From positions 1 to 21,416 of the IMG/VR virus record IMGVR_UViG_3300044825_001472: 21,416 nucleotides of DNA; one strand, 5' to 3'. This document shows, in pieces, positions 1 to 21,416 of the stretch. Origin of the DNA: a virus. Below the pieces are notes generated by a model, which worked only from the letters and a program-made list of their open reading frames with translations, did not search any database and was not told the DNA's origin. The translations under genes and the position numbers were made by a program. Position 1 is the first letter of the stretch. Every line of letters starts with the position of its first letter.

Positions 1-785
1 CTGCTGCGGGATGTGGCGAGCATCATGTATTCGAATGATGTGCCTGCCTTTGCGATCAGTTTCGCGTTGCCTTTAATCGTGAGGTTGTTGCGCGGAATTG
101 TGATCGCGGCGCTGATGACGCATACGCCTGATATCTCTATGGTGCTGTACTCGGCTGCGGCATCTATCGCGGCCTGAATCGCTGCAGTGTCGTCTGCCAC
201 CCCGTTGCACACTGCACCGTAATCGCGTACGTGGATCGTGTCGCCCATTTTTGCACTTGCTTCACGCTCGACCGCGCCGGTGCCAGATTGTAAAAACGTG
301 CCCGCCGACACGGTCGACGAAACGGCTTCGAGCGCCGTGCCTGCAGCGTTCCACCGGATATACTGCGACGCGCCGGGGGGGGGGAACGCTAGTCCTGCCA
401 AGGTGGTCGCTATAGACAGCAATGGCGCTCGGCCGATCTTCTCGGCCACTTGCTGAATCTGCATCGCCAGCGAATCGAGGTCTCGGTTTACGGTATCAGA
501 GCGAAAGCTCCCCGCATTCTGATAATCGAACGCAGTACGGCCGTAGTCCATGTCGCGCATGATGATGACTTCTGAATCAGCGGGTGGCGTATCAGTGAAA
601 ACGACGTTTCCGCCGTCTTCTTCGTCGACGCCCGTAACGGTGTAATCAGTGGTGAGCACCTGCAGATCCTCGTCGACATAGACGAGCAGGTCTGCAGAGG
701 ACAGGATTCTGAAGGGGTATGCGAAGGTGTCAGACGAGCCCGACGCGGTGTAGGTGACTCTGGTGTCTTGTGCTGGTACCGTCAT
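1..785 (-). CDS. Tailspike / tail fibre, T7-fibre-like N-terminus plus pectate-lyase-like domain (3' part outside window)
   Basis: Host-recognition protein attached to the tail, probably a polysaccharide-degrading spike. The frame is open from the ATG at 785 to the window edge, giving 261 residues with no stop. Residues 1-120 resemble the T7 gp17 N-terminal anchor: TYTASGSSDTFAYPF near the start, then DYTVTG, then RDLDSLAMQIQQVAEKIGRAP. A linker containing PPPG (135-138) and GTGAVERE follows. Residues 186-210 carry VRDYGAVCNGVADDTAAIQA, the typical opening of the pectate-lyase-3 right-handed beta-helix found in many depolymerases. The strand is minus; the start lies 20 bases after the terminase stop and is preceded by GAGGG at a good distance. 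The linker prolines are encoded by a ten-C run (see the separate entry). The missing C-terminal part would hold the rest of the helix, so substrate and catalytic residues cannot be judged. Confidence 0.9.
   Translation of the reverse strand, partial: MTVPAQDTRVTYTASGSSDTFAYPFRILSSADLLVYVDEDLQVLTTDYTVTGVDEEDGGNVVFTDTPPADSEVIIMRDMDYGRTAFDYQNAGSFRSDTVNRDLDSLAMQIQQVAEKIGRAPLLSIATTLAGLAFPPPGASQYIRWNAAGTALEAVSSTVSAGTFLQSGTGAVEREASAKMGDTIHVRDYGAVCNGVADDTAAIQAAIDAAAEYSTIEISGVCVISAAITIPRNNLTIKGNAKLIAKAGTSFEYMMLATSRS
375..384. repeat. Homopolymer run of ten G (ten C on the coding strand) inside the tailspike gene
   Basis: This is the longest single-base run I found in the window. It supplies the end of a Phe codon and three Pro codons at residues 134-137 of the tailspike. 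The frame on both sides is coherent with ten bases: the anchor-like N-terminus and the pectate-lyase-like part are only joined at this length. One base more would bring a stop within about 40 codons; one base less gives a stop after roughly 70 codons. Such tracts are known slippage sites in DNA replication and transcription. Confidence 0.9.
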
Positions 786-805: not shown

Positions 806-2398
806 CTATGAGTGGTCGATCTGGTATTCAAATCCGCCCGCGTCTGGTTCCCAATGGTCGCGTTTTGGGCTATTCGATTTCCTTAATAAATGACCAACGC
901 CCAGTCGCACCGGGGTGGCTTTGATAGCCCCGGCACCCGAGTCGAGATAGTCATCGGGCTGGTCTGTAACGGCGGGGTTGAAATCCTTCATCTGATCCCA
1001 CAGGGGGCCGTTCAGCACGTCGACGTGAGCCCACAGGAACTGTGACGACAGCGGGGCCTCGATGGCGTCAAGGATCCGTTTCTGCTTGTTGGTCGTTTGG
1101 AACTGCTCGATAACAGCACACGCAATATCGCGTTTTGCCAGATGAGCACGCAGCGCCGCCGGCACAAATCCGCCTGGCCCGTTCGTTTCTACCGTCACTG
1201 AGCCCAGCGAATACCGCGCAACATGATCGCAGACTTCCTTACATTGGGCGTCAAGATCCCCGGAAAGACCTGCGCACACATGCCAGTACAATCGCCCCAG
1301 GCTATCGGTGAAGATGACCGACAGCGCAGACGCGTCGGATTTCAGCTTGCCCAGTGACACATCCCAGTACGTTGATGCGCCTACAACCTGCACGCCACCC
1401 AGGAACATCGCTGCATCGTCGTTTGCCGTCACGATCCGGGGCTGCATGTCATAAGCGAGCAGGCGCTCAGGATCCAACCGAACAGAGCCAATAGGTTTGC
1501 TGTGTAGCTGGTACTGCGAATCCCACTCGTTGATCGTGCGGCACTCTTTGCGCCGATTTATCAGCTCCTTGTGCGTGAATCGCTTCGGCCATGCGCACCC
1601 GGCATAACAGTCGATTATTGCAGCGGGGGGGTCGGCAAATTCAATGGAGCCGTTTTGGTACCGGTAATCCTTGCCATGTTCAAGCACCCGAGTAAATTCG
1701 CCGATCCCGGCAAATACTATTTCCGGCAAAAATGGTATGACAAACTCGCGCACGCTGCCCGGCTCTATTCGAAGTTCATGCTCAAACATTTTGATGGTGA
1801 GGCAGTCCGCACCCATGCGCTCGACTTCGTCATATAGCGAATCATGCGTGTGAGGGGTGCCGATGTAGAGCTTCCTTCCGCCAGGCACAAGGATGTGTGT
1901 CTGCTCGCTCAAGCGATACCGCATTTTCGCCCTCGCCTCAGGGGTGGCTATATTGCGCGGCACCTCGACGTCGTCGTTCTGCACCTCGTCGGCACGCGAG
2001 CTTGTGATGTTTGATGTAATGCCTGCTGCCTGCATGGACGGGTTACGCTCATCGGTCGATCCTGGCACCCACCAGAATGCGACGTCGCCCCGCATGCCCT
2101 GCGCCAGGTGAGCGGTCAACGGGTGCTTTGATATGACCGACTTGGTGTCGCGGCTGGTTTTGTATGCCGTGCCGTCCTGGTCGCCTTGGTGCAGGATACG
2201 AAACGTTTGGTCGAGGTAGTACAGCCACGCATTATACACGGCCAATATCGTCGACTTACCGAATCCGCGAAAGCACCGCAACACGGCCACGTCGCCCCGA
2301 TGCTCAAGCCAGTGGCAGGCCGCAATATGGATGTCCGGCACATCCCACCGCATGCGATCTGCCCACATCATGAAGAACGCGGCGAACGATACTTTCAT
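806..2398 (-). CDS. terL: Terminase large subunit (T7 gp19-like packaging ATPase/nuclease)
   Basis: DNA-packaging motor that binds the connector, pumps DNA into the prohead with ATP and cuts concatemers. The 530 residues hold an N-terminal ATPase with Walker A RGFGKST at 44-50 and a T7-type Walker B segment SSRADEVQNDDVEVP at about 133-147. A C-terminal RNase-H-fold nuclease follows, with likely metal-binding acids in WDVSLGK (D346), VETNG (E404) and PDDYLDSGAGA (D483/D486). The motif order matches gp19-type terminases, and the length is slightly below T7 gp19. Between the two domains, residues about 220-268 form a beta-strand-like insert (see findings). The ATG overlaps the stop of the small subunit (TGATG), so the pair is probably translationally coupled. 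The tailspike gene follows after 20 bases. Confidence 0.96.
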   Translation of the reverse strand: MKVSFAAFFMMWADRMRWDVPDIHIAACHWLEHRGDVAVLRCFRGFGKSTILAVYNAWLYYLDQTFRILHQGDQDGTAYKTSRDTKSVISKHPLTAHLAQGMRGDVAFWWVPGSTDERNPSMQAAGITSNITSSRADEVQNDDVEVPRNIATPEARAKMRYRLSEQTHILVPGGRKLYIGTPHTHDSLYDEVERMGADCLTIKMFEHELRIEPGSVREFVIPFLPEIVFAGIGEFTRVLEHGKDYRYQNGSIEFADPPAAIIDCYAGCAWPKRFTHKELINRRKECRTINEWDSQYQLHSKPIGSVRLDPERLLAYDMQPRIVTANDDAAMFLGGVQVVGASTYWDVSLGKLKSDASALSVIFTDSLGRLYWHVCAGLSGDLDAQCKEVCDHVARYSLGSVTVETNGPGGFVPAALRAHLAKRDIACAVIEQFQTTNKQKRILDAIEAPLSSQFLWAHVDVLNGPLWDQMKDFNPAVTDQPDDYLDSGAGAIKATPVRLGVGHLLRKSNSPKRDHWEPDAGGFEYQIDHS

Positions 2399-12905: not shown

Positions 12906-13769
12906 TTACTCAGCGCACGCGATTTCGGCGACCTTCTCTTCTTCGACGCGCACGGCACCAATAGACATTTTGGCGTAAATGCGAGTGTTGAAGCCCTTGC
13001 CAGCGTCTTCGCCGACACGCGTCACTATGTCTTGACCAACGCCCAGCACAACACCGGACTTGGCCCAGGCGTAGCAGTAGCGAGTGGTGGAAGAGATCGG
13101 CAGACGCTCGGACGGGATCATTTTGAAGCCGAACAAGGTAGCGTTGTTGATGGTGCCGTTCTGCAGCGAAAGCACAGTGTTGTACTCGGAGTTGGTGAGC
13201 GTGGTGTCGCTCAACAGATCCTGCAGCTGCTTGTTGCCGTACGCCAGGCAGAGCACTTCGCCGTTTTCTTCGTCCGCTTCGTTTGCGCGGAACAGACCGC
13301 GAGTGGTGATCAGTTTGGCTTTTGTCAAACCGGTGCCGCCGACTGCAACTTTCTGGCCCGCAGGCAGAGCGATGTTGCCGGTGCTGGAACGAGAGTTGCC
13401 GCCCAACGCAGAAATGACCATGCTGTCTTTGGCGCGGTTCAGCGACTGGATCATCGCCTTGACGTACTCGGACGACGGATCGGTCAACAGGCGAATTTTG
13501 TCCTGATCGTCGAGCATGTCGCCGTCTTCCCAGTCGAACAAATCGACATAACGGGTAGAGTGCGGTTGATCATTGATCGGGGTGTCACCGTGGCGGTTGA
13601 TGCGACGCTGTGCGGTACGCTGGCCAAGGCGGTTGATTGATTTGCTCATGCCTTTGATGCCGCTTTCCATCGTCACGTTTGGCTCGAAACGCGATTTGGA
13701 TTGCTGGGCAAGGTGCACGAAATTGTCAGCGTACTGCTGTACAAATGCTTCGGTAATTTGGAAGCTCAT
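12906..13769 (-). CDS. Major capsid protein
   Basis: The shell protein of the head, 287 residues. It belongs to the phage-capsid family with an opening of the type FVQQYADNFVHLAQQSKSRF, a middle RRINRHGDTPINDQPHSTRY (57-76) and then VDLFDWEDGDMLDDQDKI. This is the characteristic HGDTP...PH..R...L.D pattern of the family, which has an HK97 fold. No T7-style C-terminal frameshift extension is evident: a stop ends the frame soon after VRVEEEKVAEIACAE. CGGAG is found upstream of the ATG. The gene has an unusually long leader for this phage: about 155 bases from the 17-bp putative promoter to the start. The scaffold gene lies upstream and the accessory head gene downstream. Confidence 0.93.
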   Translation of the reverse strand: MSFQITEAFVQQYADNFVHLAQQSKSRFEPNVTMESGIKGMSKSINRLGQRTAQRRINRHGDTPINDQPHSTRYVDLFDWEDGDMLDDQDKIRLLTDPSSEYVKAMIQSLNRAKDSMVISALGGNSRSSTGNIALPAGQKVAVGGTGLTKAKLITTRGLFRANEADEENGEVLCLAYGNKQLQDLLSDTTLTNSEYNTVLSLQNGTINNATLFGFKMIPSERLPISSTTRYCYAWAKSGVVLGVGQDIVTRVGEDAGKGFNTRIYAKMSIGAVRVEEEKVAEIACAE

Positions 13770-13924
13770 GATTAATGCTCCGATGAGTATTTAAAAATGT
13801 GCCTTCCAGGGTGTCCGTGTTTGCGGGCCTGTTTACGTGCTGATATCGGCGTAATCTGCTACGGGCAAAAGAGGGTATCCACCTGCCAAGGTTGGGCCTA
13901 TGGACGCAGTGTGGGCGTCTTGCT

Positions 13925-13941
13925 CGTTAGATTTCCTGAAC
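13925..13941 (-). promoter_or_regulatory. 17-bp repeat copy 1, putative phage promoter for the capsid unit
   Basis: The minus strand reads GTTCAGGAAATCTAACG. The identical 17 bases occur at 20899-20915 in the same orientation, both times in a gap between genes. This copy starts at the end of the T-tract of the terminator after the scaffold gene and is followed by about 155 untranslated bases before the capsid ATG. Size, orientation and placement fit a promoter for a phage-type polymerase or a binding site for a phage regulator. No RNA polymerase gene is visible in the window, so the reader of the site is unknown. Confidence 0.5.
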
Positions 13942-13966
13942 AAAAAAAAGCCCCGTTTCCGGGGCT
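13942..13966 (-). terminator. Rho-independent terminator between scaffold and capsid genes
   Basis: The minus strand contains AGCCCCGGAAACGGGGCT, a 7-bp stem closed by a GAAA (GNRA-type) tetraloop, followed by eight T in a row (the first can pair with the A at the stem base). It is 19 bases downstream of the scaffold stop. It should end transcripts from the connector/scaffold operon just before the putative capsid promoter. Confidence 0.94.
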
Positions 13967-13985
13967 GTGAGGACCTGACACGTAA

Positions 13986-14900
13986 TTACTGACTGAGCGA
14001 AAATGACCTGCCGCCGCCCAGCTTTGATTTGTTTGTGCTGTAGCGTTTGCTATACAGAGCGTCCATTTTTGCCATGACCTGCTTGTGCTCTGGGTGCGAG
14101 CTGTCGAGGTAGGCAGGGTTGGCGCGAAGGCTTGCAATTTCCCCATCCCAATCCTGCGCAGCTTGTGTGCCTTCACCGATGGGCGTGTCTTCCTGCAGCT
14201 CTGCGCCAATCTTTGCGAGCAGTCGCACCAGTGCAGGATTGTTGCCTATTTCGTCCAAGGCTTCGGCGTCCTCGGGTGAGTCTGCAAAAGCCTGCAGCGC
14301 ACGATACGCGTTGCCCAGGTTGCGGTCGTATTCTGTGGGGTTTGCCCACGTCTTGCGGAGCTCCTGCCCACACTCTTCGATGCTCATCTGCTCATCGGCC
14401 CCGATGGTGCTACCCATGATGTTCAAGTGCTCATTGAGCACGTACTCAAGCTGGGCGTTTGTGATGCCCCTGGCGTGCGCACCCTTCATGAATGATTGCA
14501 TCGCCGGATCTGCCTTGATGTCGTCAAACGTGACGCCTTCGGGCAGTGACTCGATTGCGTACTCTTCTGGCGTTTTCGGTGGCACGTCGCCGGATCCAAA
14601 CCGCTTCTCGAATGCCTTGTTTGCGTCTGCGAGTTTGCGGGCTGTGGCCTCGATGTCGAGATCTGCGCCGCCCTCTTTCACGACTCGGTGCTTTTCTGGC
14701 ACCCAATCAAATGGATTTGCAGGGGCTGCTTGTCCGGCTCCTGTGGCCGCCGCTGCGCCTTGCGATAGGATCGAACCGCCTGTTGTCGGCGTCGGTGCTG
14801 GGCTTCCTTGTGGCGGCGTTCCCTGCGCAGCTGCCGCTGCTCCTGGGGCCCCACCGGTTTCAGCCTCCTGCTGGTAAATCGGTTTCACGTTCCAAATCAT
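13986..14900 (-). CDS. Capsid scaffolding protein
   Basis: Assembly protein that guides the capsid subunits and later leaves the prohead. It has 304 residues and lies directly upstream of the capsid gene, the standard place. The N-terminus is Gly/Ala/Pro/Gln-rich and likely unstructured to about residue 62. Next comes the family-like block NPFDWVPEKHRVVKEGGADL, then KLADANKAFEKRFGSGDVPP and TPEEYAIE. The remainder is acidic and helical; a basic C-terminus (YSTNKSKLGGGRSF) could contact the shell. I start at the ATG at 14900 (MIWNVKPIYQQ), which has CGGGAG upstream, not at the TTG at 14921. It overlaps the preceding Bbp19-like gene by 41 bases. Confidence 0.87.
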   Translation of the reverse strand: MIWNVKPIYQQEAETGGAPGAAAAAQGTPPQGSPAPTPTTGGSILSQGAAAATGAGQAAPANPFDWVPEKHRVVKEGGADLDIEATARKLADANKAFEKRFGSGDVPPKTPEEYAIESLPEGVTFDDIKADPAMQSFMKGAHARGITNAQLEYVLNEHLNIMGSTIGADEQMSIEECGQELRKTWANPTEYDRNLGNAYRALQAFADSPEDAEALDEIGNNPALVRLLAKIGAELQEDTPIGEGTQAAQDWDGEIASLRANPAYLDSSHPEHKQVMAKMDALYSKRYSTNKSKLGGGRSFSLSQ

Positions 14901-15117
14901 AAGCGTCGACTCCCGCTGCAATGTTTATCTGATTGAGGATGTGCTGCACGACTGCAGTGCGCCCTGCCCGGTAGCACTGCTCACGGTCCGCTTCGTGTCC
15001 ACCAGGCACATAACCGGCAACACAGAACCGCCGCACGAGATCTTCCAGAATCAGTTTGCCCTCGGCATGATTCTCGAAAACCCGCGCGTAAAACTCAGGC
15101 GTGACCTCGGTACTCAT
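14860..15117 (-). CDS. Bbp19-like small phage protein
   Basis: An 85-residue protein resembling Bordetella phage Bbp19: FYARVFENHAEGKLILEDLV is followed by RRFCVAGYVPGGHEADREQC and YRAGRTAVVQHILNQI. The family pattern is a helix with VLEDL, a G-E-D/R-E-x-x-Y-R-A-G segment and a final helix with I..I. It is often found between connector and scaffold genes in podoviruses; its function is not established to my knowledge. I start at the ATG at 15117, which overlaps the stop of the preceding 95-residue gene as ATGA; the frame also runs further upstream, but there the sequence is only a shadow of that gene. The C-terminal part overlaps the scaffold gene. Confidence 0.85.
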   Translation of the reverse strand: MSTEVTPEFYARVFENHAEGKLILEDLVRRFCVAGYVPGGHEADREQCYRAGRTAVVQHILNQINIAAGVDAYDLERETDLPAGG

Positions 15118-15401
15118 ATCGGCCAGAAACTGAAATCGAGAGCAGGCGCAGTCGAGCCGGCCAGCACTGCGCGAAACTTCGTGCGAATGCCTACGGGTAA
15201 CCGGATGCCGCTCTGCTCGGTCGCACTGGCAACAAATACCCAATCGGCAAGCGTTGCATTCCAGCGCTCAATTGTGAGCGTTCCGCCGCCGAAATCCCCA
15301 GACATTGAGATCCCGTATTCAATGGCATCCGTTTTTGATGCGGCGTCGCTGAACGGGTCGAAAGTAGCGTCTTCGGTAAAGCTGTACGTCGTCGTGGTCA
15401 T
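15114..15401 (-). CDS. Small beta-rich protein, function unknown
   Basis: A 95-residue protein that I do not recognise. It has the character of a single beta-sandwich: alternating hydrophobic strands in GTLTIERWNATLADWVFVAS, then TKFRAVLAGSTAPALDFSFW. The beginning, TYSFTEDATFDPFSDAASK, is polar. Its start overlaps the stop of the 409-residue gene (TAATG), and its stop overlaps the next start (ATGA), so it is translated as part of the same chain of coupled genes. The context suggests a virion component accompanying the two beta-rich proteins before it, possibly an accessory or chaperone part, but there is no direct evidence. Confidence 0.72.
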   Translation of the reverse strand: MTTTTYSFTEDATFDPFSDAASKTDAIEYGISMSGDFGGGTLTIERWNATLADWVFVASATEQSGIRLPVGIRTKFRAVLAGSTAPALDFSFWPI

Positions 15402-16630
15402 TAGAGCCCCTCGTTAAAATTGACTGCCAAAGGAATCGCCAGCGGTCGCGCAAGTGAGTGCAGGTATCCGATGCCGACGGAGTTTGGATATTCGGTACCA
15501 AAGTCGCCCCACACGGTGCCGTTATGCACTCGGTACTGAAACGAGACGATATCTGTGCCGGCTGAATAACTTGCATCCTGGTACAGGGTCAGATCGGCAA
15601 TAGTGCCGCCCGTGACGTTTCGCGCTTCTATCTGGTACCCGCTGACAATGTCGTCAGGTATCGTCGTCAGCCTGTTTTCAGGATCCGCAAGCGTTCCGGA
15701 TGTCGTTATGTATTTGACGCCTGCAGCGGGTTGCACCTGCACGTTGTGCCCTGCGGACACCTCGTCGTCGTCCGTGGTGAGCACCAGTGCGGCGTTCACG
15801 CCGTACTTATTCGCACCGAGCGACACCGTTATTGTCACTGAGGTGTTGGACCACGCCGTAACTGTCTGCGCCACGCCCCCCAGTGTCACGGTGCCCTGTG
15901 ATGCGCCTGCACCTGTAACGGTCAGTGTGATCGACGCGCCATCGGTGGGGGTGTCGTCGCTGGTCGATACAATAACGGGGCCACCCGGATCAACAGGGAT
16001 AACCAGCGCATAAAGCACCTGGTAGTTGGTGCCGTTAGTGTTCGCGTTGCGGCCACCTATCGCCGTCGGGGTTGTCGTGGCGGTGTGGTAGAACGAAACC
16101 GACCGCGACGCCGCCGAGTTGAAGTTTAGGTCCGATCCTGCTACCTCGGTCAGTGGCGAATCGGTCGTGAAGCTGTTTCCGCCCACGGTGTCTGTCATAA
16201 CACCGACAATGATGTCGCCCACCGTTGTGGCTTGTGACACGCTCATTGCGTTGGCGTTCGTGTCGCTGTCTTTAACCTCTACCCAGTTCGCAGTGTTGGT
16301 ATCGACGTTATCAAGGCAGAAAATGGTGCCGGTGTAATAGTTGTTGCCACTTGCGCCGGGTGTTACTGTCAAAACAGGGTTAGCGGCAAAACTGCCGAAA
16401 CCGCTGGTCATGTACCACCCTTCGCCAAACGGGTAGCCAGACGAGTGGTTGTGCCGACCTTTGTTCGTGGCGGCCACGCCGTCGATGGTTAGCTCCGTCG
16501 GTGTGCGTGAAGCGTTGGCTTGTTCGTGCGAGAACACGATAGCAATGGCTGTGGTGCCGACCGGCACTGTAAACCCGGTGAGCGTAGCACTCGGCGACGC
16601 TTGAAAAACTGTCTGTTGTAAAATGCTCAT
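15401..16630 (-). CDS. Beta-rich structural protein with IPT/TIG-like domain
   Basis: A 409-residue protein dominated by Thr, Ser, Gly, Val and Asn, typical for phage surface proteins. Residues 1-212 form a beta-rich N-terminal region of unknown family (opening TLTGFTVPVGTTAIAIVFSH). Residues about 217-299 resemble an IPT/TIG (immunoglobulin-like) domain: SITLTVTGAGASQGTVTLGG, then AWSNTSVTITVS. The C-terminal region holds YQIEARNVTGGTIADLTLYQ and FQYRVHNGTVWGDF, also a beta fold. No signal peptide or catalytic site is seen. Its ATG overlaps the stop of the FN3 gene (ATGA). Likely a virion decoration or adhesion protein acting with its neighbour; this is inferred from composition and place. 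Confidence 0.75.
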   Translation of the reverse strand: MSILQQTVFQASPSATLTGFTVPVGTTAIAIVFSHEQANASRTPTELTIDGVAATNKGRHNHSSGYPFGEGWYMTSGFGSFAANPVLTVTPGASGNNYYTGTIFCLDNVDTNTANWVEVKDSDTNANAMSVSQATTVGDIIVGVMTDTVGGNSFTTDSPLTEVAGSDLNFNSAASRSVSFYHTATTTPTAIGGRNANTNGTNYQVLYALVIPVDPGGPVIVSTSDDTPTDGASITLTVTGAGASQGTVTLGGVAQTVTAWSNTSVTITVSLGANKYGVNAALVLTTDDDEVSAGHNVQVQPAAGVKYITTSGTLADPENRLTTIPDDIVSGYQIEARNVTGGTIADLTLYQDASYSAGTDIVSFQYRVHNGTVWGDFGTEYPNSVGIGYLHSLARPLAIPLAVNFNEGL

Positions 16631-18558
16631 GGCAACACCACCGGATAACCGCTTGAACTCACCATGGAGCCGTCCGACTTGACGACGTACATGTAAACGG
16701 TCTGCCCGCTTGTGAATGCGCCATAGTTGATAACGACGCTACTGATGGCCGTGTTGCCCCAATTCGCCTGCCGTGCGAGTTGAATTTCGCGTGCGGTGCT
16801 TGCGGCCCACGTCGACGCACTGCCGAGCACAACACGGGCTCGGGTGCTTGCGACATAAACGTCGGAGTAGTCGGCAACGAATCCGGTCATGCCGCCGTCG
16901 TAGTGGCCGAGTCGGATGTCTTCCCAATGTGTGGGTTTTGTGGTCCACGCGGGGCCGGTGCCAAACCATGCAAAAGTGTGATCGGAAAGGCCGAGGACGC
17001 CATCGCGCCACACATCGAACTCGCCATCCTGCACGCTGTAATCCGAGTTCATTTTCAGCCAGTTTTCATACAGCTGCCACGATCCAAGCGAGTTCGCCGC
17101 GTTCCATCCTGCAGTGTTTCCGCTGTTCGGGTCGCTCGAACCCTGGTTCGCACCCATAACAAAACTGTTCTGGTTTGCGGGCACATGTAGCATGGCCTGC
17201 GGGGTTTCGCTGCCCCCAGTGCCATCATGAAAACCGTTCGAAAAGATGTAATACATCTTGTAGTTTTTGCCGCTCGCAGACCATGCAGTGTCCATCGACG
17301 CATGCCGCCAGTACGAGAAAAACAGTTCAGACTGATGGACGTTGCTCGGACCAAACCCGCAGAAATTGACAGTGGTCCCGCTTGGGTTGGTTCTCCACTT
17401 GCGCATTGATCGTGCGCGTGCGCCACGAGTGCGGGCATTTGAGAACAGACAGTTGTTGCCGTTCTGAGCACCCCAAGCACTACCAATAGTCGGCGTTGCA
17501 GCCGTAATTAGTGAGCCGTTTGCGCCTTCCGTGCCGTACATAAAGCCCAGCACATCGCCGCCCATCGTACCGAAACCAAGACCGTTGACAGTGACTGTTG
17601 CCCCGTCGCTGATCGTGCCCGTGATCGAGCTGATACCATCAGAGCCGCCACCCGCCGACACAGTAACCGCGACGACTGCCGTGTTAGGTGAAGTGTCCAC
17701 CCCATCTACAGCCAGCGCACGATACCAGTGAGAGCCAACAGAAACCCCGGTTTCCTGGTGCGTGGTGTTACCAGCTGCCACCGTTGCAACCGTGCTGAAC
17801 CCGGTTGATTCGCTGGTCGTGCTGCCTTCAATACGGGTTTGTGGCACACCTGCGTTATTGTCCACCCAGCTGAAATTAACCGTTGTCCCGGACGCTACAG
17901 CCGTAAAGCTCGAAGGTGCTGATAGCGGGGTGTCAATCGTGGCATTGGCGTAGACGTAGGATGATGTGTCAGGCGTAACAAGCGCGCAGATACGGTAATA
18001 ATACGTTCCATCTGACAGGCCAACTACAGTATGAGTCTCGACGCCCGTTGATTTTGTGGCAACGTTTGACCAGCTCGATACGCCGTCGGCGCTTGTCTGA
18101 ATAACGTGCTGTGCTGTGCCGCTTGTCTCGTCGTTCCACGTGAGAATGATGTCGTAGCCGCTGACAGTGGCGAGCACCGATGTCGGCGGTGGGATAACTG
18201 CCGTAATCGTAACGCTTGCGTTGCTTGACGGAGTTGTCGACCGCACACCGTTGTACAGCCCGAGCGCACGAAAATACCATGTGCCAGCCGACGGAATAGC
18301 CGCCGTAGATGCCTCGATGCCTGCCGCTGCTGTGGCAACATCGACCCACCCGGTTGACCCGTTTGCGCTGCGCTGTATGACCGTGCCCGCACTTCCTGCA
18401 GATTCATCGGTCCAGGCGAAAGCAATGTACGCCCCGGTGTTTGTGGCTCCAAGTGCCGACGGTGCAGGTACTTCGGGTTGTCGTGATGGATTCTGGTACC
18501 TGATACCGTTCCACGCCCGCGACAATCTGCGCCGCTTGATGATGCCGTTCGACGCCAT
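16627..18558 (-). CDS. Multi-FN3 protein with lectin-like domain (putative virion decoration/adhesion protein)
   Basis: A 643-residue protein. After a basic start (IIKRRRLSRAWNGIRYQNPS) come three fibronectin type III-like repeats at about 31-120, 122-210 and 212-301. Each has a WxDExxG-type strand and a Y[FY]R[AI]-type strand (FAWTDESAG...WYFRALG, LTWNDETSG...YYYRICA, FSWVDNNAG...HWYRALA). A short TIG-like strand set (TVTVNGLGFG) follows at 307-340. Residues about 365-575 look like a concanavalin-A-like/LamG-type jelly roll: ELFFSYWRHAS, WQLYENWLKMNSDYSVQDGE, FDVWRDGVL, GHYDGG, YSDVYV. A small C-terminal beta domain ends VYMYVVKSDG. FN3 and lectin-like domains in phage virions usually bind cell-surface or host glycans. 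It overlaps the connector stop (TAATG), so is coupled to a low-copy head gene. Confidence 0.85.
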   Translation of the reverse strand: MASNGIIKRRRLSRAWNGIRYQNPSRQPEVPAPSALGATNTGAYIAFAWTDESAGSAGTVIQRSANGSTGWVDVATAAAGIEASTAAIPSAGTWYFRALGLYNGVRSTTPSSNASVTITAVIPPPTSVLATVSGYDIILTWNDETSGTAQHVIQTSADGVSSWSNVATKSTGVETHTVVGLSDGTYYYRICALVTPDTSSYVYANATIDTPLSAPSSFTAVASGTTVNFSWVDNNAGVPQTRIEGSTTSESTGFSTVATVAAGNTTHQETGVSVGSHWYRALAVDGVDTSPNTAVVAVTVSAGGGSDGISSITGTISDGATVTVNGLGFGTMGGDVLGFMYGTEGANGSLITAATPTIGSAWGAQNGNNCLFSNARTRGARARSMRKWRTNPSGTTVNFCGFGPSNVHQSELFFSYWRHASMDTAWSASGKNYKMYYIFSNGFHDGTGGSETPQAMLHVPANQNSFVMGANQGSSDPNSGNTAGWNAANSLGSWQLYENWLKMNSDYSVQDGEFDVWRDGVLGLSDHTFAWFGTGPAWTTKPTHWEDIRLGHYDGGMTGFVADYSDVYVASTRARVVLGSASTWAASTAREIQLARQANWGNTAISSVVINYGAFTSGQTVYMYVVKSDGSMVSSSGYPVVLP

Positions 18559-20162
18559 TACCGCCCCCCTTTTGCGTATCGGTCGGCCATGGCTTGCGCT
18601 GCCATGCCCTGCATTTGCGCCTGCGACTGTTCTTGCTCGATTTGCGCCTGCGCTTGCTGTTTGGTTTCGCGGTACTCTTGCAGGTCCTCAGCCGATGGGA
18701 TGATCGCCGCAGGAACGCCAAGGCCCTTGCCGATGTGCGCAAGAGCCTCGTCGACATCGAGCGAATCGATTGCTTCGGGCTTGACCTGGGCGGCCTGCAT
18801 GACGACTGCCATGTATTGCTGGATTGCCGTCACTTCCTCGGCCATCTGGCTGCGCGCCATGGGCGATAGATACTTGACGGTAAACGACTTGCCGGCCAGC
18901 GATTGCGGAGCCTGCCCAAGCCACCCGGCACGGTAGGCAATACCGAAACAGCGCTCGACAAGGGGCTGCAGGTACTCGGCCTGAAACCTCCCATACATCG
19001 GCCCAAGCATCTGACGCACCAAGGCCATGCGGGCATGTACCTCGGTCGCGGTCATTGCTGGGCCGTCTTGCGGCTGCAGCACGTCGGCCATCAAATGTTT
19101 GCGGATCGCGGCCTGCATCTGGGCAATCATCGTCTCGGCCAGCTGCCAGTTGCCTGCAGTCGGCAGTTGGCGGATAGATCGCTCGACGTCGTTCACAACA
19201 ATGAGTTTTCGGGCACCGAGCTTGACTGTGCGCGGATTGATTACGCCGTCACTCGACACCAAGGTCGGCGGCGCGATCTCGATCTCGGCCTGGCAGCGGT
19301 GCAGGTACTTCAGGTAGTTCAGCTCGCGGATCGTCGGCAGCACGTCGAACACGGGGCCGACGCCATAGACGGAATTGGGTATCGACATCCAGCGCGGAAT
19401 AATCACCGGAAATTCGTGGTACCCGCTTTCCCTGCAGACGTGTTTCGCTTCGACTTCGACATGGCACGATGCGAACGGCAGGTTTTTTGCCATTTTCGCG
19501 TTGACTGCATAGGTCTGGCGCGGGTAGATCGCATGGACGAAAGCGACCGATTCATTCGGTTTTTCGATTGCGAGCTTTGCGGTCTTCGCGGATACAGCAT
19601 CGGCGCCAAACTTGGTAACGGCCTGTTGCGCGGTGAGCTGATACTCGCGGTGCACGATATCGATCTTGCCGCCAGGCTTGGAGGCTGCACAATACAGCTG
19701 GGCAATGGGCCACTGCTCGAAGTTGTAGGACTGCCGTTCGCGGTCTTCGTCGACGTACAGCGCAAACCAGCCAGCGGAAACGGCATCGACGGAGCACTCA
19801 TAACCTGCCGCATCAAAGTTGGCGGCATGGATCTCGCGCCAGATGACATTGCTTGCCGTATCCAGCCAGCGCTTGTCCTCGTCTTTGTCGCTCAACGTCT
19901 GCATGCCAAACCAACGGACATTGGACGGGGTGAGCCCGTTCATGATGTTCGCAGCCAGCACTTTGGCCGCCTCGGTTGCTGTATCGTCGAGCAGTTCGGC
20001 ACGTTTGCTCAACCCCTGTACTGCGTCGACGCTGCTGCCCAGGCCATCGGCCCGGAGCGGGAACGTCATTTCGTAGCACGAGCGCCAAACGTCGTCATGC
20101 TTTACGCGCAGGGGTTTAAGCGCTGCCAGTTTGTCGATGATTGCGGATCCGGATTCGGCCAT
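18558..20162 (-). CDS. Head-tail connector / portal protein (T7 gp8-like)
   Basis: Dodecameric ring at one capsid vertex through which DNA enters and leaves; it nucleates assembly and docks the terminase. The 534 residues match T7 gp8 (536). Family features: the N-terminal helix RVKHDDVWRSCYEMTFPL, then SKRAELLDDTATEAAKVLAA and NGLTPSNVRWFGM (about 74-86). Later come PNSVYGVGPVFDVLPTIREL with NYLKYL, and the region MTATEVHARMALVRQMLGPM (about 373-392) with LQPLVERCF. The C-terminus is Gln-rich and helical, and may contact DNA or the terminase. The start overlaps the stop of the preceding 143-residue gene (TAATG), and the end overlaps the FN3 gene in the same way. Confidence 0.95.
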   Translation of the reverse strand: MAESGSAIIDKLAALKPLRVKHDDVWRSCYEMTFPLRADGLGSSVDAVQGLSKRAELLDDTATEAAKVLAANIMNGLTPSNVRWFGMQTLSDKDEDKRWLDTASNVIWREIHAANFDAAGYECSVDAVSAGWFALYVDEDRERQSYNFEQWPIAQLYCAASKPGGKIDIVHREYQLTAQQAVTKFGADAVSAKTAKLAIEKPNESVAFVHAIYPRQTYAVNAKMAKNLPFASCHVEVEAKHVCRESGYHEFPVIIPRWMSIPNSVYGVGPVFDVLPTIRELNYLKYLHRCQAEIEIAPPTLVSSDGVINPRTVKLGARKLIVVNDVERSIRQLPTAGNWQLAETMIAQMQAAIRKHLMADVLQPQDGPAMTATEVHARMALVRQMLGPMYGRFQAEYLQPLVERCFGIAYRAGWLGQAPQSLAGKSFTVKYLSPMARSQMAEEVTAIQQYMAVVMQAAQVKPEAIDSLDVDEALAHIGKGLGVPAAIIPSAEDLQEYRETKQQAQAQIEQEQSQAQMQGMAAQAMADRYAKGGR

Positions 20163-20593
20163 TACTCACCCGTTGCCATTTTGCCTTGGGCAATCACTGA
20201 GGACAGTTTCATCGGTCGATCCTTGGTGCCTTTCAGCGAACCGGCGACGGACAGCATGGACTGCCTGCGCAAACGTCGCTTCATGGTCGACATGAGTGCG
20301 GCCTGCTGGGTAGCGGCGGTTTCGGCTGCGAGTCGTTCGCCTTCTGGATCGGTGCCCAGTCCTGTGATTTTGGGCGCACGCACGCCGATACCGAGCTTCT
20401 GGTGCAGAGCGTCCGATTGCCCGGTGAAAATGCCTGCAGGATCGAGGAAATGCTTAACGGAAAACTTCCCGTTTTTCGGGTTGATGCCAACGCCCGTTTT
20501 TTCTGCGACCTTGTTCCAAAGCGCACCACCAAGGCTTTGCCCTACAGCTTTCCTGACCGCTTTCTTCAGCTTGCGACCGAGACCGAACCCCAT
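20162..20593 (-). CDS. Small basic protein upstream of the connector, function unknown
   Basis: A 143-residue protein not assigned to a known function. The N-terminus is strongly basic (MGFGLGRKLKKAVRKAVGQS). The middle contains NPKNGKFSVKHFLDPAGIF and a Gly-rich GIGVRAPKITGLGTD. The C-terminal part has MKRRLRRQSMLSV. Many podoviruses carry a small gene immediately before the connector, some coding for structural proteins of the head or tail; this one could be a minor virion protein, but there is no motif to prove it. GGGGG precedes the ATG at a fair distance, and the stop overlaps the connector start. Confidence 0.78.
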   Translation of the reverse strand: MGFGLGRKLKKAVRKAVGQSLGGALWNKVAEKTGVGINPKNGKFSVKHFLDPAGIFTGQSDALHQKLGIGVRAPKITGLGTDPEGERLAAETAATQQAALMSTMKRRLRRQSMLSVAGSLKGTKDRPMKLSSVIAQGKMATGE

Positions 20594-20595
20594 AG

Positions 20596-20862
20596 TTACA
20601 TGCCCCCGCCACGAATGTTTTCAGGACACAACCAGCCCTCAGTCGTGAGGACGGGACGGCGAATGGTCGTCGGATCTACCTCAGAAGGCATGGGAAGCCC
20701 GTCAGGAGTGGTGTCGATGAGTTGCGCGGGCGAATACAGCTCGGCCCCTTCGACGGCATCTGCGTGCACTGTGGCCGGTGCGTCGACATCCTCGACAACA
20801 GTCTCGACAGTGCGCTTCGGCTCAGTGCCAGGGGTGTGGATTTTGAAATCGCGTTTTGACAT
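20596..20862 (-). CDS. Small acidic protein, function unknown
   Basis: An 88-residue protein with no recognised family. It opens MSKRDFKIHTPGTEPKRTVE, then has an acidic stretch (VVEDVDAPATVHADAVEGAE), and a Pro/Thr-rich C-terminus ending WLCPENIRGGGM. I start at the ATG at 20862 because GGAGG stands directly upstream at the right distance; an in-frame GTG at 20883 would add seven residues but has no good ribosome site. It is the first gene after copy 2 of the 17-bp repeat, so it may be the first gene of the connector/structural operon. Confidence 0.78.
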   Translation of the reverse strand: MSKRDFKIHTPGTEPKRTVETVVEDVDAPATVHADAVEGAELYSPAQLIDTTPDGLPMPSEVDPTTIRRPVLTTEGWLCPENIRGGGM

Positions 20863-20898
20863 AGTGGGCCTCCATGCGCCCACGATGCCTGCCGGTCC

Positions 20899-20915
20899 CG
20901 TTAGATTTCCTGAAC
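20899..20915 (-). promoter_or_regulatory. 17-bp repeat copy 2, putative promoter of the head operon
   Basis: The sequence is GTTCAGGAAATCTAACG on the minus strand, identical with copy 1 at 13925-13941. It lies in the 55-base gap between the stop of the helix-turn-helix gene (20918) and the start of the 88-residue gene, 37 bases before the latter's ATG. Flanks differ between the copies: AT-rich upstream in both (AATAATC here, T-tract there) and purine-rich downstream (GGGACC here, AGCAAG there). The match therefore marks the site itself. It may be a promoter for a phage-encoded polymerase. Confidence 0.5.
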
Positions 20916-20917
20916 GA

Positions 20918-21172
20918 TTATTGCCCCACCCGCGCGCGCGACATCGGAACTTTCTCGGTCGGAGCCATTTCCCTGCGCTTACTCGTGACCTGACACCATA
21001 GCCCGAGCAGCGCCTCGCCGTCGGTGTGCTTTGGCTCGGATCCTTGCTTGTAGCCGCAAAGTTTCTGGGGGCTCAATCCGATGGCTGCCTCGATGCCATA
21101 CAGTGACACCCCCTGCCGTTTTAACTCGTCGATGATCCGAAACCAATCAACCCGCGTCTGTTCCGTCGTCAT
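20918..21172 (-). CDS. Small helix-turn-helix DNA-binding protein
   Basis: An 84-residue protein with a Cro/XRE-like helix-turn-helix: WFRIIDELKRQGVSLYGIEA followed by AIGLSPQKLCGYKQG (residues 10-45). GVSLYGIEAAIG would be the first helix and turn and LSPQKLCGYKQG the recognition helix. The C-terminal part (WCQVTSKRREMAPTEK) is basic. Similar small proteins are common in phages, where they are supposed to regulate transcription; the target is unknown. GAGAGG lies seven bases before the ATG. It overlaps the preceding gene by 26 bases and ends two bases before the 17-bp repeat. Confidence 0.8.
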   Translation of the reverse strand: MTTEQTRVDWFRIIDELKRQGVSLYGIEAAIGLSPQKLCGYKQGSEPKHTDGEALLGLWCQVTSKRREMAPTEKVPMSRARVGQ

Positions 21173-21416
21173 CGGCGTGCCTCTCGTGGGTTTTTATTAT
21201 TCGCGCTGTCCACCTACGCCCCCTGATGTGCTTCGGATTTGCCTTGTCTTCGAGATACTTCCAGTTTTCGTCCACGTGTGTTTTGAGGTCGTTCAGTTTG
21301 TACGGTTCTGGCGTTTCGATCTGCATGTGGTCTGCGTACCACTCGCCCTTGAAATCGTCGTATAGGTCGAGCGTGAGAATGACGCGCCACATTCGAGGGT
21401 GATACTTTGCCCACTC
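21147..21416 (-). CDS. Small hypothetical protein, probably cut by the window edge
   Basis: The frame is open to the right edge of the window (EWAKYHPR before the first ATG at 21392), and that ATG has no good ribosome-binding site, so the real start probably lies outside. From the ATG it is 81 residues: MWRVILTLDLYDDFKGEWYA, then PEPYKLNDLKTHVDENWKYL, then a basic tail GRRWTARIIKTHERHAD. It is charged, likely alpha/beta, with no motif I recognise. It overlaps the start of the helix-turn-helix gene, which argues for co-translation. Confidence 0.65.
   Translation of the reverse strand, partial: EWAKYHPRMWRVILTLDLYDDFKGEWYADHMQIETPEPYKLNDLKTHVDENWKYLEDKANPKHIRGRRWTARIIKTHERHADDDGTDAG

Follow-up and report, generated by a model that had tools for sequence, protein, structure and literature searches.

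The 21,416-nucleotide stretch analysed here (the window) is IMG/VR record IMGVR_UViG_3300044825_001472, a viral fragment of 21.4 kb whose extent is identical to that of the window, and corresponds to the late region of a podovirus encoded on the minus strand. Genes are ordered from a small helix-turn-helix gene through a head operon with a PF12236 portal, a protease-like gene, a PF19821 capsid gene, tail tubes, internal proteins and the terminase to a tail fibre gene. Two gaps of this region hold the repeat GTTCAGGAAATCTAACG, proposed in an earlier note on this DNA as a phage-specific promoter, either of a single-subunit phage polymerase or, alternatively, as a regulator-binding site. In silico analyses indicate that the small DNA-binding protein encoded next to one copy most likely switches on the late promoters of a temperate short-tailed phage. 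The features concerned are listed below.

3-785, minus strand: tail fibre/spike gene, cut by the record end, putative target of promoter 3
854-859, minus strand: -10-like hexamer GACCAT, 13 nt past operator 3
873-886, minus strand: operator 3, TTAAGGAAATCGAA, putative tail-fibre promoter in the terL 3' end (family scan; same place in relatives)
12906-13769, minus strand: major capsid protein (PF19821), putative target of promoter 1
13808-13830, minus strand: capsid leader hairpin B
13872-13898, minus strand: capsid leader hairpin A
13908-13913, minus strand: -10-like hexamer CACACT, 13 nt past operator 1; predicted +1 near 13901
13927-13940, minus strand: operator 1, core TTCAGGAAATCTAA of the 17-mer, putative capsid promoter (shuffle test, family scan, alignment)
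13949-13966, minus strand: intrinsic terminator just upstream of operator 1
18558-20162, minus strand: portal (PF12236), encoded in the promoter 2 operon
20596-20862, minus strand: head operon, first gene after promoter 2, with its ATG at 20862
20860-20887, minus strand: hairpin spanning -10 to AUG (GUGGGC/GCCCAC, CAU/AUG), -13.2 kcal/mol, z -2.7, proposed lock in read-through RNA
20882-20887, minus strand: -10-like hexamer CATCGT, 13 nt past operator 2; predicted +1 near 20875
20901-20914, minus strand: operator 2, TTCAGGAAATCTAA, putative portal/head operon promoter (shuffle test, family scan)
20918-21172, minus strand: 84-amino-acid helix-turn-helix protein of Cro/C1 fold, proposed late activator

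The 17-mer is present exactly twice, at 13925-13941 and 20899-20915 of the minus strand as the earlier note had reported, and this pair is the longest and the sole exact repeat of at least 17 nt in the window. The flanking genes are also those it had described, a capsid unit and a head operon. Copy 1 occurs 156 nt upstream of the major capsid start and just past the intrinsic terminator, while copy 2 is found between the small helix-turn-helix gene, which ends 2 nt before it, and the portal operon. With up to 3 mismatches allowed, shuffled sequences contained 0.02 matches on average, and two were never reached in 100 shuffles, in agreement with the view that such a pair is unlikely to arise by chance. 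Beyond the two exact copies, none within 3 mismatches was detected in the whole 21,416-base record. A family-level scan revealed a third, diverged copy absent from the earlier note, which lies in the 3' end of terL ahead of the tail-fibre gene, at a place that is also occupied in relatives. The three copies share a 14-bp core, TTmAGGAAATCkAA. Looser window matches (12 of 14 positions) were scattered over both strands, mostly without a -10, and were taken as noise; the single exact match in IMG/VR, located on the unrelated contig L003 within a 1,520-amino-acid coding frame, was taken as chance, and megablast against phages returned no match.

A related capsid protein is encoded by 57 IMG/VR loci (designated below by L numbers where needed). 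GTCGGGAnnCCGAC is found, with unchanged spacing, at the homologous places of IMG/VR relatives, of Pseudomonas prophages and of the induced Yersinia prophage YeP6. Where the window has copy 1, relatives have AATAGTCGGGAnnCCGAC or variants of it, which align in register with the window copy despite their different letters; GTCGGGAAACCGAC is a further version of the operator alongside TTCAGGAAATCTAA and GTCCGGAACCGGAA. YeP6 has GTCGGGAAACCGAA twice, ahead of the portal operon and ahead of the capsid gene, with a hexamer at 13 nt in each case. Same-strand copies number 3-5 per whole relative and 2-5 across IMG/VR relatives, Pseudomonas prophages and YeP6, and no opposite-strand copy was found at the cut-off in five whole relatives. 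A scan of a genome collection likewise gave several same-strand copies per Pseudomonas prophage, the remaining scattered single matches being consistent with chance. In the relatives, copies on the coding strand stand ahead of the portal operon, the capsid gene, the pilot protein gene, the lysis genes and the tail fibre (terL 3' end), not every genome having a copy at each of these places. The promoter proposal of the earlier note gains from these data, as all copies lie along the direction of transcription, sites occur at the same places in dozens of genomes, and the outcome that the note had named as refuting, a lack of further copies ahead of other genes, did not arise, additional late genes being preceded by copies as well. 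In distant relatives (L046-L056) and in Piluca, no convincing repeat common to the capsid and portal upstream regions was found.

Two observations relate to individual copies. At the lysis side of L063 (14158-14260; G009), the late-promoter copy has an intrinsic terminator no more than about 40 nt further on, with a holin-like gene after it, and homologous sites exist in L033, L038, L040 and L115; such a terminator could delay or limit expression of the lysis genes. In YeP6, a near-copy, GCCGGGAAACCGAT, at 21490-21503 of L061 is situated near the capsid start and overlaps the second leader hairpin (see below), either by chance or as an overlapping element.

In all three window copies a -10-like hexamer (nA...T) begins exactly 13 nt past the 14-bp core. 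When 65 distinct sites were aligned on the motif alone, the downstream sequence proved variable save for an A and, four positions on, a T, which in this unsupervised alignment correspond to the second and sixth hexamer positions (61 of 65 sites each), with the hexamer again starting 13 nt past the core. Over 44 dissimilar downstream sequences, a set that contains some wrong-strand readings of palindromic sites, each of the two columns reached 77%. No sigma-70 -35 hexamer was found and no sigma-70 promoter was called at the window copies; the fixed motif spans about -39 to -26, where a -35 would be. The dyad reads GTCGG-N4-CCGAC in relatives and TTmAG-GAAA-TCkAA in the window, the sites thus being kept in place and not in letters. 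The hexamers would direct the host polymerase to the predicted start points. Because an intrinsic terminator directly precedes promoter 1, the capsid unit appears shielded from the head operon, and a comparable terminator-then-promoter layout was noticed by eye in L004, L005, L014, L024, L036, L043 and L044.

The 84-amino-acid protein has homologues in those relatives that are sequenced far enough to include the stretch ahead of the portal operon, and the PHROGs family phrog_16553 takes in all 30 aligned members. The AlphaFold (AF2) model, produced without two rows from GenBank phages, displays a Cro/C1-type domain (pLDDT 86.5), and structural searches (VIA) gave modest matches (Z 6-7.6) to restriction-modification C proteins, CylR2 and P22 c2. 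Pfam helix-turn-helix models match it only below cut-off, NCBIfam gave no match, and a profile search of solved chains returned only generic or short chance-like matches. Across 31 genomes, distances between recognition helices correlate with distances between operators (Mantel r 0.72, p<0.0005). The correlation persists when the rest of the protein is controlled for (partial Mantel 0.63) and when capsid distance is added as a control (0.64), whereas controlling instead for the helix leaves -0.07 for the remainder of the protein. It survives removal of any one outlier and stands at 0.44 without the window and L045; operators that depart from the search patterns are missing from this test because sites were found by pattern. 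The pairings are TTmAG with helix PQKLCGYKQG in the window, GCCGG with PRQTLCGYKSG in L014, GTCCGGAACCGGAA with PQPTLIRFRDG in L045, and GTCGG with [PA][RK][ST]TL in the other genomes. This covariation supports a cognate protein, with the 84-amino-acid protein as the candidate activator.

Many of these promoters have a second property, in that the -10 and the start segment that follows it are complementary to the region of the ribosome-binding site. Pilot promoters fold as TAGGCTTGCTCC...GGAGCAAGCC-ATG and portal promoters as GCTGGCCCTCG...CGAGGCCAGC-ATG, with z scores mostly from -2 to -7, against a mean of -0.2 for 78 ordinary gene starts of the same genomes, among which three of the five strongest are motif-bearing pilot genes. 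In the window, promoter 2 folds as GUGGGC-GCAUGGAG-GCCCAC-U-AUG, CAU pairing with the AUG, and the hairpin is gone in an RNA begun at the predicted +1; at the same place YeP6 has GGCGUA...UACGCC (z -3.1). A sliding-window test over 76 clusters showed that the segment most complementary to the leader runs from +3 to +14 relative to the -10 (mean z -1.36), a stretch largely missing from RNA begun at the late promoter, windows over the operator being weaker (down to -0.84). The 5' arm of the hairpin lies upstream of the predicted late +1 at pilot and most portal sites, not in all genomes. Judging from these folds, read-through RNA would be locked and late-promoter RNA free.

Twin hairpins that have the same asymmetric internal loop occur between promoter 1 and the capsid start. 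This leader (window 13806-13899, minus strand; L032 9872-9967; L061 21419-21510) is conserved upstream of the capsid gene in most of the 57 loci. Pairing holds in 96.5% of alignment cells, with 44 two-sided changes versus 11.9 in shuffles, and slid versions reach at most 43%. A covariance model finds it before the capsid gene, including in YeP6, L019, L023 and L100, which were unused in its building, with one marginal extra match in L039 (E value 0.8). Rfam gave no match at the gathering threshold or at E values up to 1. The support for the leader is covariation and not energy, because the overall stability of the window leader is ordinary (z about +1). In the window and in relatives, a promoter-derived 5' arm can fold onto hairpin A in read-through RNA, so that hairpin A may be confined to RNA that starts from the late promoter. 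In the distant relatives L046-L056, this leader holds AACAACC repeats in another arrangement.

Taken together, the repeat is probably the operator part of late promoters served by a Cro/C1-type activator and the host sigma-70 polymerase, with a start segment that, at many of them, would lock the leader. The repeat family, the placement, strand and spacing of the sites, the -10 columns, the helix-operator covariation, the hairpin complementarity and the leader covariation are read directly from the compared sequences; that the hexamers direct the host polymerase, where the starts lie, that the protein activates rather than represses, and that translation is locked, we infer. In the proposed scheme, the 84-amino-acid protein would dimerise on the dyad, centred at about -33, and recruit host sigma-70 RNA polymerase, standing in for the -35 by class II-type activation. 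Being produced during the early phase, it would then open the late units. RNA reading through from upstream would have its ribosome-binding site or start codon hidden (portal, pilot) or its twin-hairpin leader broken (capsid), and RNA from the late promoter would be free. The lock would follow from the complementarity, in many of these promoters, of the -10/start segment to the leader that it precedes. A broader version, in which the Cro/C1 activator replaces the -35 at several promoters and the -10/start segment also serves as an antisense arm that locks the leader, so that late proteins come only from activator-started RNA as in a two-level regulon switch, is put forward tentatively and given slightly less than even weight.

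Several points weigh against this reading. The dyad of the window is weak, its symmetry being limited to TT..AA, and an asymmetric AGGAAATC core is retained in all three window copies. PHROGs labels the family of the 84-amino-acid protein as transcriptional repressor, and with the window, L014 and L045 all left out, the partial correlation drops to 0.27 (p 0.07). The capsid relatives L019 and L023 lack a recognisable second operator copy, and at the portal promoter, relatives such as L005, L007, L024 and L043 have no strong hairpin over the start region. Finally, early genes and any other regulator are out of view because the window ends at 21416.

Repression would be the closest alternative, the 84-amino-acid protein or a lysogenic repressor keeping the late promoters shut; the family name given by PHROGs and the Cro/C1 fold, typical of repressors, are in its favour. 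It is nonetheless unlikely, since no -35 exists under or beside the site, which suggests a late promoter in need of help rather than of blocking, and since the 84-amino-acid gene is found on the late side, outside the immunity region, while YeP6 and Piluca have separate repressors. These two phages carry integrases as well as repressors, so the group includes temperate phages. The motif could also act as RNA, either as a boxB-like hairpin (GUCGG-GAAA-CCGAC) to which an antiterminator binds or as a Q-type antitermination site: relatives have a perfect 5-bp stem with a 4-nt loop, L006, L011 and L014 show GCCGG/CCGGC compensation, and a terminator follows the lysis-gene copy. An RNA hairpin was set aside as quite improbable because the inner stem of the window copies would pair C.U and A.C, and is kept so in all three; moreover, several in-genome copies break outer pairs (CCGTC, CCGCA), the site usually occurs after terminators and not before them, and the -10 columns are left unexplained.

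If the repeat covered -16 to +1 of promoters for a single-subunit RNA polymerase of the phage, its length and position would fit, and copy 2 reads CTAACGGGA, which in our own comparison loosely resembles the T3 initiator. This part of the earlier proposal is not supported and is very improbable. As the window is without its early region, the polymerase was sought in relatives: a PF00940 profile search was negative in all 20 (a first run without positive control), and the same search, while giving a T7 match at 1e-109, was negative in YeP6 and Piluca, leaving the idea unsupported. Nor does the layout correspond to that of the T7 type, one contiguous consensus through +1 with no separate -10, since a conserved, sigma-70-like hexamer is found at a fixed 13 nt downstream, past a variable spacer, without a -35, and since the operator tracks a helix-turn-helix protein. 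The regulator-binding alternative of the earlier note came nearer the truth, as the site seems to form the operator portion of the promoter, where an activator would bind. An alternative sigma factor site (ECF-like, with GGAAC at -35) could account for GGAAnC at a 17-nt spacer from the hexamer; it is the least probable explanation, as a dimeric helix-turn-helix protein is what the dyad and the covarying helix suggest, the -10 columns resemble those of sigma-70 promoters, and copies with GGATTC and GGATCC exist.

Elsewhere in the window, two large minus-strand genes at 16627-18558 (643 amino acids) and 15401-16630 (409 amino acids), located between the portal and the protease-like gene, had no PHROGs or Pfam match; at this place G009 and YeP6 have short genes or none.

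The components of the preferred reading, an activator operator in the -35 place and a leader lock, are known separately, as inverted-repeat late activators (P1 Lpa), small Cro/C1-fold activators (C proteins) and promoter-embedded locks of the ribosome-binding site (T4). Restriction-modification C proteins are dimeric regulators that activate promoters; C.Esp1396I and C.AhdI share the small Cro/C1 fold and are among the best structural matches, but no convincing sequence-level match to solved chains was found, and here there is no restriction system and the targets are phage late genes. At T4 MotA middle promoters, an activator box near -30 replaces the -35 and is combined with a sigma-70 -10. 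The same arrangement of a box in the -35 place plus a -10 is proposed here, although there is no sign of a MotA fold and late genes of a temperate podovirus are involved. P1 Lpa serves 11 late promoters with a 9-bp inverted repeat as the one phage activator (PMC10695390). Many late promoters of one type, each with a conserved inverted repeat for one activator, are likewise proposed here; in promoter layout, by which the two were compared, the present system differs by its operator (at about -39 to -26), its 84-amino-acid Cro/C1 fold and its phage group. For T4 e, soc and I-TevI, RNA from upstream hides the ribosome-binding site while RNA from the embedded late promoter is without the 5' arm (PMC3014915, PMC2988022). 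The placement of the promoter inside the hiding hairpin resembles that of e and I-TevI, whereas here it concerns portal and pilot promoters of many genomes plus a twin-hairpin capsid leader, and T4 uses gp55 promoters. YeP4-YeP6, temperate podophages of Yersinia enterocolitica, share the operator type, present twice, its spacing, the helix-turn-helix gene and the capsid leader, and differ from the window in operator letters; promoters and transcription are unmentioned in the paper that describes them (PMC6548840). No description of this regulon or of the group's late regulator was found in the open-access literature, subscription papers being outside the scope.

Overall, these data would bring into view late-gene control in widespread, little-studied temperate podoviruses (Pseudomonas and other proteobacterial prophages, YeP4-6), together with a covarying capsid-leader RNA that has no Rfam match. 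As operator, -10, activator gene and operator-helix pairs are named, the proposal is directly testable in a reporter strain, and natural pairs of small activators with differing promoters are on offer. The T4-style idea of a promoter inside the lock may thereby be widened from single genes towards a regulon.

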